In this document: positions 13,640 to 63,634 of the stretch, piece after piece
How the letters are laid out: each line of letters opens with the position of its first letter
Numbering within the stretch: the stretch's first letter is position 1
NCBI RefSeq assembly: GCF_018623055.1
Contig: NZ_CP076019.1
Span: forward strand, 2,790,001 to 2,854,000
Length of the DNA stretch: 64,000 bases
Direction: 5' to 3'
Origin: Halorubrum sp. 2020YC2
Lineage (GTDB): Archaea > Halobacteriota > Halobacteria > Halobacteriales > Haloferacaceae
The notes under the pieces: generated by a model
The model's input: only the letters and a program-made list of their open reading frames with translations
Database searches by the model: none
What the model was told of the DNA's origin: nothing
Made by a program: the position numbers and the translations under genes

Positions 13640-14180
13640 TTTATAAATAGACGATGACGGATCGACGGAGAACACCTCCAAAGCCCCAGCCGCGAGGGCG
13701 ACGTACTCTCGCTGCGCGCTTCACTCAGTCGCTCACTGCGTTCGCTCCCTCGTTCCAGTGCTTACGTCGCCTACGTCGCCCTCGCGGCAGCGTGGCGCTA
13801 CGCGCCACGGGCAGCGAGGGACTCCGTCCCTCTGGCAACCGGGCTTCGCCCGGTGACAGCCGGCGGCTTCGCCGCCGGCGACTGCCCCTTTCAGTCCCAC
13901 CCCGCCCCGCACAGCAACCGTCGGAAGACGTTCCTGCTCGCTCACTCCGTTCGCTGCGCGGGCTGCGACTTCCGTGCTCCCGCTCGCTCCCGCCGGTCGC
14001 TCGCGGGACCGCACCTCACGCCTCCCCAGCCTCGCGGCTCACGGCTCGCGGCTTCGCCGCTCGCGTTCGCCGCGTCCCTCGCGCGTGCGGTTCGCGGCCT
14101 GCGGCCGCTCACCGGCACGCGCCACCGCGGTTCATTCATAAGAAGTACGTCAAACTCAGCTGCTCTATTTAAATACTGCC
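13640..14180 (+). repeat. Dispersed structured element, copy A (candidate ncRNA)
   Basis: The longest of four copies. It opens with the TATA-like TTTATAAAT (13640-13648) about 26 bases before CTCCAAAGCCCCAGCC. A 16-bp perfect stem (13690-13705 with 13772-13787) encloses a CGCTC-rich loop. Four short perfect hairpins with three-base loops follow back to back: 13792-13808, 13816-13832, 13838-13854 and 13859-13879. Then come the conserved single-stranded blocks TGCCCCTTTCAGTCCC and CACCTCACGCCTCCCCAGCC, and a long terminal hairpin at 14081-14122. The right end has CATTCATAAG and TTTAAATACTG. Neither strand has a convincing protein. It is either a transcribed structured RNA or a non-autonomous mobile repeat. 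Confidence 0.75.
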
Positions 14181-36940: not shown

Positions 36941-37310
36941 TTTATAAATGATTGATCTCGGATCGGCGGTGAGCAGTTCCAAAACCCCAGTCGCGAGGAC
37001 GCCGTACGCTCGCTGCGCTCCTCACTCGGTCGCTCACTTCGTTCGCTCCCGCGTTCCGGTGCTTACGTCGTCATCAGAACGCGAAGCGTTCTGATTGGCT
37101 CACGAGAGCTTTGCTCTCGTGAACGCCTACGTCGTCCTCGCGACTGCCCCTTTGAGCCCCGCCCCGCACAGCACCGCACAGCGCCTCACACCTCCCCAGC
37201 CTCGCCGCTCGCTCCCTTCGGTCGCTCGCGGCGTCCCTCGCGCGTGCGACTCGCGCCCTGCGGGCGCTCGTCGGCACGCGCCACCGCATTGTCATTTATA
37301 AGTGATCGTT
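36941..37310 (+). repeat. Dispersed structured element, copy B (candidate ncRNA)
   Basis: TTTATAAAT at 36941-36949 opens the element, about 35 bases before TTCCAAAACCCCAGTCGC. Stem 1 pairs 36989-37001 (AGTCGCGAGGACG) with 37133-37145 (CGTCCTCGCGACT). Two perfect hairpins, 37073-37095 and 37101-37121, are inserted inside this stem's loop. Then follow TGCCCCTTTGAGCCCCGC and CTCACACCTCCCCAGCC, and the terminal hairpin 37240-37281. The right end is CATTTATAAG. Stem 1 differs from copy A at several positions but stays fully paired. It lies between the converging thiD and ZIP genes. Confidence 0.75.
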
Positions 37311-47096: not shown

Positions 47097-47276
47097 TTTA
47101 TAAATGGACGATGCTGATTCGGTGACTCCGGCTCAATCTCCGACACCTCGCTTATAAATAGCGAGCCGAGAAACGGCGATGACGGCCGCCTAACCTCCAG
47201 CCGGACACTTATAAATAGTTGACCACGAATCGGCGGCGAACACCGCCAAAGCCCCAGCCACTCAGTTATAAACAAC
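47097..47276 (+). repeat. Tandem TATA-box units in front of element C
   Basis: Four TTATAAA boxes occur at about 47097, 47152, 47209 and 47266, spaced 55-57 bases. The units between them end in related sequence, the last two with CGGCGGCGAACACCGCC and AAAGCCCCAGCC. This is the promoter-plus-leader part of the dispersed element, repeated as a ladder. The first two units have drifted. It implies repeated partial duplication or insertion at the element's left end. Confidence 0.7.
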
Positions 47277-47550
47277 CGACTACGGATCGGCGGCGAACAC
47301 CGCCAAAGCCCCAGCCGGGAGGGCGCCGTACGCTCGCTGCGCTCCTCGGTCGCTCACTCCGTTCGCTCCCTCCGGTGCTTGCGTCGCCTACGGCGCCCTC
47401 GCGGCTGCCCCTTTGAGTCCCGCCCCGCACAGCCCCGCAGTCTCACGCCTCCCCAGCCTCGTCAGTCGCCTCCGCTTCGCTCCGGCGACTGACTCCCTCG
47501 CGCGTGCGACTCGCGCCCTCCGGGCGCTCGTCGGCACGCGCCACCGCTCT
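47277..47550 (+). repeat. Dispersed structured element, copy C (candidate ncRNA)
   Basis: Compact copy without hairpin inserts. After CCAAAGCCCCAGCC, stem 1 pairs AGCCGGGAGGGCGCCGTA with TACGGCGCCCTCGCGGCT (one mismatch). Then come TGCCCCTTTGAGTCCCGC and CACGCCTCCCCAGCC, a 10-bp perfect hairpin at 47461-47493 (GTCAGTCGCC/GGCGACTGAC) that differs in sequence from copy D at the same place, and the terminal hairpin 47500-47541. The right TATA-like end is missing or decayed. It lies between the antiporter and the tRNA-Arg locus, which converge. Confidence 0.75.
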
Positions 47551-47629
47551 TCAAAACCACAACTGACTGAGCGTGTCGCGCTGGACCGAAACACGACTCG
47601 CGGTGCTTACCGTCTGGTGTGTCCGAAAA

Positions 47630-47864
47630 CGTCCTGACGGAGTCCTGCGCGAGCGAAGCGAGCGCAGGGCACGTCAGGACGTGAACGCAGCGGCTGTCGA
47701 ACGAAGTGAGACAGCCGCAAAGTGAACGTCCTGACGGAGATTTGAACTCGGAAAGACGGTCGGCCTCGCTTCGCTCGGCCGCTGCGACTTTTCTGCTCAA
47801 ATCTCCGCGGAGTTTCTTTCAACACGTACTGCTCGCTACGCTCGCAGTATTGTGCTGAAAGAAA
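47630..47864. repeat. tRNA-Arg 3'-end copies and nested hairpins
   Basis: Bases 47727-47749 copy the 3' end of tRNA-Arg, and CGGAGATTTGA (47735-47745) has its inverted copy at 47797-47807. A shorter copy at 47630-47639 pairs with 47672-47681 (10 bp), with an inner CCTGCGC/GCGCAGG stem and a GAGCGAAGCGAG loop. Further stems lie around CGGCTGTC (47690-47715) and CTTTCAACAC (47818-47864). Everything sits immediately downstream of the tRNA, as at the tRNA-Pro and tRNA-Asp loci. Confidence 0.75.
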
Positions 47865-47937
47865 CGTCCTGACGGAGATTTGAACTCCGGTCCCTGGCTC
47901 CGCAAGCCAAGAGGATAGTCCACTACCCTACCAGGAC
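47865..47937 (-). tRNA. tRNA-Arg (GCG)
   Basis: On the minus strand, 73 bases fold as a tRNA: acceptor GTCCTGG with TCAGGAC and discriminator G, T arm CGGAGTTCAAATCTCCG, anticodon loop TTGCGGA with anticodon GCG (codon CGC, arginine). No intron and no encoded CCA. Confidence 0.92.
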
Positions 47938-51219: not shown

Positions 51220-51330
51220 CCTCCCCGCGCTGAAGCGCGAGGATTCCCACGGCACCGCACCGTTGGGTTGGGATATTGTGGTTTACGACGTGACCCGTTC
51301 TTGAGGTGCGAACGCACCAGTTTCTTTGTC
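51220..51330 (-). ncRNA. Candidate omega-RNA (reRNA) of TnpB
   Basis: TnpB proteins use a guide RNA that covers the 3' end of tnpB and the right end of the IS. Here that region holds the terminal hairpin (51220-51243), with a second pairing possible around 51250-51300. The guide would be the host sequence just past the end, that is, the last codons of the deacetylase gene read backwards. This is placed by analogy; the 5' end is not known. Confidence 0.4.
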
Positions 51331-52563
51331 AAACAAGAACGTCGATGGCTGTGCCAACCAGCCGTTACTCCTATTCACCGAGAGAGTCGGTGAACTCGGA
51401 GATACTTTCTGCCGAATGTTCTCAGCCCCATTCACATCCGCGTTCGCCACTGTACCGCACTCATCGCAGACATACAGTCCACGTTCAACACGGTTCGCGT
51501 CACGCTTCCGGCCACAGCACGAACACGACTTCGAGGTATCCCGCTCAGACACTTGTTCAACCGTGATATCTTTCATCTCGGCTTTGTATTCGAGGAGGTC
51601 GGTGAACCGGTCGAACGCCCACGAGTGTAGGTCAAGATTGCCGTGTTTACCCCAGTCTTTCGACTCGCCGTTCTCCGCATCCTCACGGATACCGGAGAGA
51701 TTGCCCACCACGATCGTTCCAATTTCCTCGTCAACACACCGCTGGACGATATGCTTCGAGAGGGTGTGCAAGTAGTGGGTGCGGCGGGCCGACTTCTTCT
51801 GATTCAGCCGAGTGGTCTGCTCGGAGTCCGAATCGTCACACCGAGCGATTCGCTTGCTGAAGTAGTAGTCGTCCTGTTTCAAGCAGTTCAGCGGGTACAA
51901 CTCGCTGTGACCGTCTTCATAGGCGAGCGCGGCGAAGTTGTTGATCCCGAGATCAACACCCACAGTCTTCTCACCGGGGGTTTCAGCCACGTCGATTTCG
52001 ACCTTACAGACGAAGTGTAGTTCCCATTCGTCTCCTGTCCAGACAATCTTGACTTGTTGGACGTCCTCTACGGTGGAGAGGTCAACGTCCGGGCGAGTTT
52101 GGTACTTACACAGGACGAAATCCGACCAGTACTCTTTCAGGTTCGAGCCTTTGGAGAGTCGAACTCGGTCGTACTGCGTGTCGAGTTTGAAGCCTTTCTG
52201 CTTGAATGTGACTGTGGAACGCGGATGCTCGTCGCCGTGTTTGCGGTAGCCGGGCGGGTTCGCTTTCGTATCCCCGTTTTGTCGTTTACCGTACCAGCTG
52301 TTGAACGCTTCAGCGAGTTCTTGAAGGACTCGCTGACTTGACTGAGAATGTAGGTCATCGTAGCGTTCGTGGGTTTTGAGGTACGCGGTGAGTTCGGTAT
52401 GGTTGGGAATGTGGTCGATTTCGTCCCAGATCCGACTACACGTCCACCGTCCGATGTTCCAGAGTTTCGAGGCGGCGAACCCGAGCGAATCAAGGTCATC
52501 TTGTACCCGCGACTGGTTCCGTATGGAAGCAGCGTAGGTGCGGGTAACGACCTGTTTCGCCAT
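51283..52563 (-). CDS. tnpB: TnpB (OrfB) RNA-guided nuclease-like protein
   Basis: A 426-aa IS605 OrfB protein. RuvC-I is intact (VGVDLGINNFAAL). The RuvC-II region reads IVVGNLSGIRED, where other TnpBs have a Glu in VEDL and most haloarchaeal relatives I recall have VGDL; both acidic positions are missing here. RuvC-III (NADVNGAENI) keeps its Asp, and the zinc ribbon CSCCGRK...CDECG is present. So nuclease activity is in doubt, while RNA and DNA binding may remain. The C-terminus GWLAQPSTFLFDK is typical. The protein is full length with no frameshift. Confidence 0.9.
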   Translation of the reverse strand: MAKQVVTRTYAASIRNQSRVQDDLDSLGFAASKLWNIGRWTCSRIWDEIDHIPNHTELTAYLKTHERYDDLHSQSSQRVLQELAEAFNSWYGKRQNGDTKANPPGYRKHGDEHPRSTVTFKQKGFKLDTQYDRVRLSKGSNLKEYWSDFVLCKYQTRPDVDLSTVEDVQQVKIVWTGDEWELHFVCKVEIDVAETPGEKTVGVDLGINNFAALAYEDGHSELYPLNCLKQDDYYFSKRIARCDDSDSEQTTRLNQKKSARRTHYLHTLSKHIVQRCVDEEIGTIVVGNLSGIREDAENGESKDWGKHGNLDLHSWAFDRFTDLLEYKAEMKDITVEQVSERDTSKSCSCCGRKRDANRVERGLYVCDECGTVANADVNGAENIRQKVSPSSPTLSVNRSNGWLAQPSTFLFDKETGAFAPQERVTS

Positions 52564-63116: not shown

Positions 63117-63310
63117 CGCCGGTTCCGACGCCGGACCGACCGGACGCGTTTTCGCGGTTTTCCGTTTTGACTCCACCCGCGCAGCGGTGGCGCTGTTTGG
63201 CGTTGAGGTGTGTGGATCGGCTTGGAGGACCCTCGATCGATACCGGGAGTATGTGTATCAATGCGATTGATCGGTAGTTTATAACTGATTGAGTGGTGTC
63301 GCCGTCGGCT

Positions 63311-63634
63311 GTTTATACGTGATCAACGACGCGGTGAGGATCTCCAAAGCCCCAGCCGCGACGACTCGCGCGGCTTGCTGCGCTCCTCAGTCGCTCGTTC
63401 CACTCGCTCCCTGCGGTGCTTACTGCGCCGGGCTTCGTCTTCGCGGCTGCCCCTTTGAGTCCCACCCGACCACAGCCGCACAGCACCTCACGCCTCCCCA
63501 GCCTCGTCGCTCGCTTCGCTCGCGACTCCCTCGCACCGGCGGTTCGCGCCCTTCGGGCGCTCACCGGGGCGCGCCACCGCCTCATTCATTTATAAGCGAT
63601 TGTCGGCGTCGCTCATGGCTGTTTAAATACTGTA
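63311..63634 (+). repeat. Dispersed structured element, copy D (candidate ncRNA)
   Basis: GTTTATACG at 63311 (another TATA-like TTTATAAC lies at about 63278) precedes TCTCCAAAGCCCCAGCC by about 30 bases. Stem 1 pairs CAGCCGCGACGAC with GTCTTCGCGGCTG (one mismatch). Conserved blocks TGCCCCTTTGAGTCCCAC and CACCTCACGCCTCCCCAGCC follow. A perfect 9-bp hairpin GTCGCTCGC/GCTCGCGAC-like stem and the terminal hairpin (63533-63572, with mismatches) end the core. The right end has CATTTATAAG and TTTAAATACTG as in copy A. It lies between the converging rpsG and aconitase genes. Confidence 0.75.

Follow-up and report, generated by a model that had tools for sequence, protein, structure and literature searches.

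A dispersed, strongly structured intergenic repeat family of Halorubrum and other haloarchaea, apparently undescribed, that resembles a stripped-down mobile element more than it does a conventional RNA gene

The window analyzed in the present study is a stretch of 64,000 nucleotides (G000:C1:2790001-2854000) from a 3.06 Mb chromosome, placed in Halorubrum because its rpsG is 95-98% identical to that of named species. Four similar elements, A to D, lie in this window, and reading of the sequence confirmed the positions and the block order assigned to them in the initial annotation. The parts of the four elements are as follows.

13640..13677, + strand: promoter-like unit of element A (TTTATAAATA box, then ...GGATCGACGGAGAACACCT), from the unit consensus of 101 copies
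13678..13898, - strand (the constrained strand): stem 1 core of element A (CCAAAGCCCCAGCC ... GCCCCTTTCAGTCCC), with nested mini-hairpin inserts
13899..14128, no strand assigned: linker and extra hairpin, CCTCACGCCTCCCCAGCC block, stem 2, terminal hairpin and GCACGCGCCACCGC end block of element A
14133..14176, no strand assigned: AT-rich tail of element A (CATTCATAAG, then TATTTAAATAC)
36942..36978, + strand: promoter-like unit of element B
36979..37160, - strand: stem 1 core of element B (CCAAAACCCCAGTC ... GCCCCTTTGAGCCCC), with two nested hairpins
37161..37287, no strand assigned: linker, stem 2, terminal hairpin and end block of element B
47186..47302, + strand: tandem 57-bp promoter-like units of element C, lying 5' of the last CCAAAGCCCCAGCC; Tandem Repeats Finder gives a period of 57 over 47186-47318
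47303..47421, - strand: stem 1 core of element C, a row of alignment A1 (model match G000:C1:2837303-2837421)
47422..47547, no strand assigned: linker, stem 2, terminal hairpin (TC/TC; on the minus strand a tandem G.A internal loop) and end block of element C
63307..63343, + strand: promoter-like unit of element D (TTTATACGTGATC...)
63344..63463, - strand: stem 1 core of element D, also in alignment A1
63464..63580, no strand assigned: linker, stem 2, terminal hairpin and end block of element D
63589..63633, no strand assigned: AT-rich tail of element D (TTTATAAG, then GTTTAAATAC 33 bases on)

Read on the plus strand, the layout comprises one to six tandem promoter-like units, stem 1, GCCCCTTTGAGTCCC, a C-rich linker, CCTCACRCCTCCCCAGCC, stem 2, CTCCCTCGCGCGTGC, the terminal hairpin, GCACGCGCCACCGC and an AT-rich tail. 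The middle block is corrected herein to CTTTCAGTCCC in A and CTTTGAGCCCC in B, and the TATA-like box does precede the conserved start, at approximately 37 bases before CCAAAG rather than the 26-35 bases first given. The part common to the genera is a foldback module of approximately 110-120 nt, which on the minus strand reads GGGYGGGACTSAAAGGGGC, an extended stem that has both internal loops of tandem G.A and the motifs GYAAGCACCRCAG and GAGGAGCGCAGCGAG, and then GGGGCTTTS. In Halorubrum, a second hairpin, the terminal hairpin and one to six tandem promoter-like units of 51-57 bp are attached to this core. Stem 1 is mostly 112-127 nt long including its end blocks, which are CAAAG/CTTTG or GAAAG/CTTTC, and its length has no preference for multiples of three, so a coding sequence was rejected. 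Copies A and B contain additional nested hairpins. A second small hairpin insert (CTCTGGCARCCGG...) that leaves the outer pairing intact is observed in the stems of 20 of 103 copies, at 13790-13885 in the window. Elsewhere in the window, a tRNA gene lies on the minus strand at 47865-47937, after which its end (GTCCTGACGGAGATTTGAACTC) recurs in partial copies with GAGCGAAGCGAG-type hairpins between them (47600-47937), and the minus strand at 51222-52563 encodes a TnpB protein (OrfB_IS605, Cas12f1-like TNB), with an Rfam sot0042 RNA at 51222-51407.

The initial observation holds, and the family extends well beyond what was first noted. The middle block GCCCCTTTGAGTCCC, searched with at most one mismatch, occurs 146 times in this genome, compared with 0 for the reversed pattern, and thus the resemblance among A to D is not due to chance. 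All four elements share one orientation in the window, as first described, but this does not hold genome-wide, where 81 matches are forward and 65 are reverse; 103 copies were extracted from this genome as stretches around matches. A total of 59 relatives were screened. Element copies were present in 34 of the 35 genomes screened from the same genus, with 1 to 179 middle-block matches per same-genus genome, and the remaining genome (G034) had a single match (L102) within a coding sequence and no element. A covariance model built from stem 1, with at most 24 candidates per genome scored so that the counts are lower bounds, matches at least 87 of 146 genomes and at least 38 of the 56 genera of the order. 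The exact pattern was detected in 81 of the 146 genomes, with up to 164 copies in a genome (control 0-1), and the full range from 0 to 164 occurs inside one family. The module takes three forms in other genera: solitary, paired with an inverted copy, or within the complete Halorubrum-like layout. Inverted pairs in which two stem-1 modules lie approximately 30 bases apart were observed at L256, L261, L264, L266, L269 and L271-L274, and L266 and L274 also have short inverted ends outside the arms (AACAGC.. / ..GCTGTT). The Rfam search revealed nothing at the gathering score for these elements apart from a chance miRNA match with an E value of 2.8, so a known RNA family was rejected, and literature searches found no description of the repeat family. 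The elements therefore constitute an apparently undescribed dispersed family with a strongly structured fold.

The paired changes that drew attention to these elements are correct: stem 1 reads CCGCGAGGGCG in A and TCGCGAGGACG in B, each with its partner; the terminal hairpin pair GGT/ACC of A and D is GAC/GTC in B and C; and the inner stem GCGGCC/GGCCGC of A is GCGCCC/GGGCGC in B and C. Alignment A1, comprising 58 stem-1 sequences on the minus strand with 29 pairs, extends this result far above shuffled expectation. Double-sided changes are observed in 20 of the 29 pairs, with 217 double-change cells compared with 57 in shuffles, 97.8% pairing compared with 84.6%, and a covariation score of 0.366 compared with 0.124; none of 500 shuffles was as high on pairing, double changes or covariation score, and the signal collapses when the stem partners are slid. 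In the set from other genera, whose alignment was fitted to the model, covariation is found in 24 of 29 pairs. The end blocks also pair with each other and covary, from CAAAG/CTTTG to CGAAG/CTTCG in some Halorubrum copies and to GAAAG/CTTTC in other families. It might be argued that no selection is involved, that DNA repair keeps the palindromes perfect, whether by quasi-palindrome correction or by template switching, and that homologous recombination alone spreads them. The exchange of hairpins as entire units is consistent with this idea, as are the similar GAGCGAAGCGAG palindromes common in this genome, e.g. at 47600-47860. However, such copy-correction would erase fixed mismatches, yet 67 of 86 copies retain the TC/TC of the terminal hairpin (a tandem G.A on the minus strand), and stem 1 still has its tandem G.A and A.A sites; it also predicts no strand bias, whereas stem 1 has one, and leaves the conserved loop motifs in 38 genera unexplained. 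This explanation is already disfavored, and we consider it very improbable.

To determine the strand bias, the 12 outermost pairs of stem 1 were tallied from both ends, a count that uses neither alignment nor energy. A.C on the plus strand is equivalent to G.U on the minus strand. On the plus strand, A.C far exceeds G.T over 101 copies, with 19 A.C and 0 G.T among distinct copies, and at the third pair, where the arms carry C/T and G/A, the combinations are CG in 52, TA in 26, CA in 19 and TG in 0. The same tally over 13 positions in 47 matches, drawn from low-copy Halorubrum genomes and from other genera, gives 28 minus-strand G.U compared with 8 A.C. Stem 2 shows a trend opposite to that of stem 1 (G.T 8, A.C 2, misparsed rows excluded) and the terminal hairpin count of 13 to 8 decides neither strand, so the strand claim is limited to stem 1. 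Folding energy also makes the minus strand of stem 1 more stable in 60 of 61 copies; this evidence was set aside because of the bias from G-rich loops, and the alignment-free pair counts were used instead. For copy C, the z-score is approximately -5 for RNA of either strand and -3.3 for minus-strand DNA, and therefore fold energy by itself cannot pick the strand or the molecule. Thus, stem 1 is constrained on the minus strand, opposite to the strand of the initial annotation.

This result bears directly on the proposal, put forward with the first description, that the elements are a family of non-coding RNA genes transcribed on the plus strand from the TATA-like box. Of 101 Halorubrum copies, 67 have the box in a constant position, compared with 2.9 expected from shuffles, and it is accompanied by an AT approximately 17 bases beyond it and a conserved A about where the start is expected, in units of 57, 54 or 51 bp. 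This spacing of box, AT and start agrees with the haloarchaeal promoter layout reported for halovirus HF2 (PMC8707807). However, transcription from such a unit would oppose the stem-1 strand, since stem 1 avoids plus-strand G.U (0 to 19) and tolerates it on the minus strand only; the TATA sequence has been lost from several unit arrays; and promoter units were not evident by eye in the 22 loci inspected from other genera. A promoter of its own is therefore not a general trait of the family, and the units appear to be a Halorubrum addition among the genera inspected. Taken together, the first interpretation is partly supported, and a plus-strand RNA gene appears quite improbable. In 13 of 85 copies there is also a TTTAAA box, at a constant distance of 31-34 bases from the TTTATAA box, which is a candidate start for a minus-strand transcript; judged from sequence, neither box is general and both promoters are putative.

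The same counts can be taken to favor a multi-copy functional RNA from the minus strand, with its structure selected for a cellular job and its dispersal secondary. Stem 1 accepts G.U on that strand only and folds more stably there, the internal motifs, like the tandem G.A loops, are conserved from one family to another, and the TTTAAA box provides a possible start. Nevertheless, the candidate promoter is present in only approximately 15% of copies, with no consistent promoter visible in other genera; copy number ranges from 0 to 164 among relatives; the minus strand is not placed preferentially at the 3' end of a sense gene; and the lower energy of the G-rich strand alone is not decisive. We therefore regard a minus-strand cellular RNA as possible but unlikely. 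A combined form, in which a large structured minus-strand RNA would occur order-wide in up to approximately 180 copies per genome, have its conserved loop motif bound by a haloarchaeal protein and be mobile without a reverse transcriptase, is regarded with slightly greater doubt.

The genomic context points in another direction. First, at the site downstream of rpsG, many species lack the element; it has the plus orientation in L140, L165 and the window copy, and the minus orientation in L134, L135, L152 and L153, with the flanks inverted along with the element (L134 compared with L140); at the same site, L144 (H. yunnanense) retains a core-less remnant consisting of only a unit, fused at TTTATAA. 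Second, at the thiD site, the element is found in approximately nine genomes and is absent from several others, and different but fully paired hairpins, some of which recur genome-wide, are observed across species inside alignable flanks. In this genome, an identity of 98% between two copies spans only part of the element; both results fit the exchange of hairpins between dispersed copies. Third, chromosomal spacing is random (gap CV 1.01), and intergenic sites are convergent in 38 cases and divergent in 14 (p 0.0012, with gene calls from a home-made codon scorer). Replication-linked orientation was ruled out, as forward and reverse copies are intermixed along the chromosome, and no excess of inverted or direct repeats was found in the flanks of 86 Halorubrum copies. 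Because of the presence and absence at orthologous sites, both orientations, the core-less remnant, the copy-number range and the random spacing, we favor, with a probability of roughly 0.6, the reading that A to D belong to a non-coding repeat family that is dispersed, mobile but non-autonomous, and present in most of the order; such a family is closer in character to a stripped-down mobile element than to a typical RNA gene. Losses combined with inversion could imitate gain at the rpsG and thiD loci, and any present activity is hypothetical, as the copies of this genome include no pair that is recent and nearly identical over its full length.

No helper gene was found, and several candidate helpers and origins were rejected. 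No Y1 transposase (PF01797) was detected in 7 of the 39 genomes searched, among them several with 58-104 copies, and as its presence does not track copy number, an IS200/RAYT-like helper was discarded. A retroelement was likewise discarded, since reverse transcriptase (RVT_1) was detected in 0 of the 39 genomes. Among element pairs less than 3 kb apart, 8 of 10 are in -,+ order with their promoter-unit sides facing across unrelated genes, e.g. G000:C1 947738/948877 and 2733114/2733828. A helper gene between close pairs was also rejected, as the ORFs there, judged by eye, look like unrelated cellular genes. In IMG/VR, two middle-block patterns match 31 stretches and the stem-1 model has one marginal match (E 0.08); no phage record matches the element and only 4 plasmid records match. 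On the marginal IMG/VR match and the phage result, a viral origin was rejected.

Herein, we propose a scheme for the mobile repeat. First, as observed, the intergenic, randomly spaced copies are gained or lost and inverted at orthologous sites, in Halorubrum without detectable target duplication. Second, also as observed, compensatory change keeps the pairing, and stem 1 behaves as though the minus strand folds. Third, we infer that a trans-acting factor, possibly a partner protein, may recognize the folded minus strand and spread or maintain it, with single-stranded DNA during mobility, or RNA, as the putative substrate, which would provide the step from fold to function. Fourth, homologous exchange would swap entire hairpins between copies, consistent with one locus at which differing yet perfectly paired hairpins are found across species with alignable flanks.

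The nearest systems, in our best reading, are the SMRs (small/short mobile repeats) of Haloquadratum walsbyi and the PATEs (palindrome-associated transposable elements), both from PMC3119063, which, compared by description, are not reported to have a strand-specific covarying core or order-wide spread. SMRs are approximately 110 bp, with inverted ends and many copies, lack a transposase gene and target duplication, and move in a way that is unexplained; members of one type are reportedly mostly more than 95% identical, and SMR-A inserts preferentially into PATEs and IS605-type elements (PMC3119063). By comparison with the published description of the SMRs (HqIRS40-43/55), the present family is similar in the length and inverted ends of stem 1, in its many copies, in having no transposase gene and in the absence of target-site duplication (no direct-repeat excess), but its stems diverge with compensatory change, and in Halorubrum each copy forms one section of a larger composite. 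Insertion into PATE or IS605-type elements was not seen, the four block motifs being absent at the few sites compared, one TnpB locus and six Y1 loci. The palindromes of PATEs resemble the ends of IS605-type transposons (PMC3119063). The present elements are likewise non-coding, palindromic, heterogeneous and free of target duplication, and one case (L144) resembles PATEs in a core deletion between short direct repeats; unlike PATEs, they share none of the four conserved blocks with the examined IS605 loci, where local matches are weak and mostly palindrome-driven. In genome G167 (164 copies), the copies at L306-L335 have a common flank approximately 45 bases out, GGTGTTTAGT ... ACCAAACAC, with an imperfect inverted-end look. 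The family resembles MITEs in being short, dispersed and transposase-free, with this hint of inverted ends, but the Halorubrum copies have no terminal inverted repeat or target duplication around them, and the inverted ends suggested by eye in G167 were not significant when tested. Bacterial REP/BIME sequences are dispersed intergenic palindromes biased to convergent gene pairs. The elements described herein share this bias but are much larger, multi-helical and do not track Y1 transposases. Class I intergenic repeats of halovirus HF2 are AT-box repeats of 56-58 bp that act as promoters (PMC8707807); the present units are of a similar kind, but the motifs differ (TCTTTAAGTC in HF2) and HF2 is viral, whereas the element has no phage match.

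With well above 100 copies in some Halorubrum genomes and a presence in most haloarchaeal genera sampled, this family represents a large unexplained intergenic fraction. The covariation supplies a ready consensus fold and model, and the exchange of hairpins among dispersed copies can inflate apparent covariation in repeat families. Moreover, from the strand bias one would expect the folded minus strand to have a binding factor, making the movement of transposase-free haloarchaeal repeats testable.
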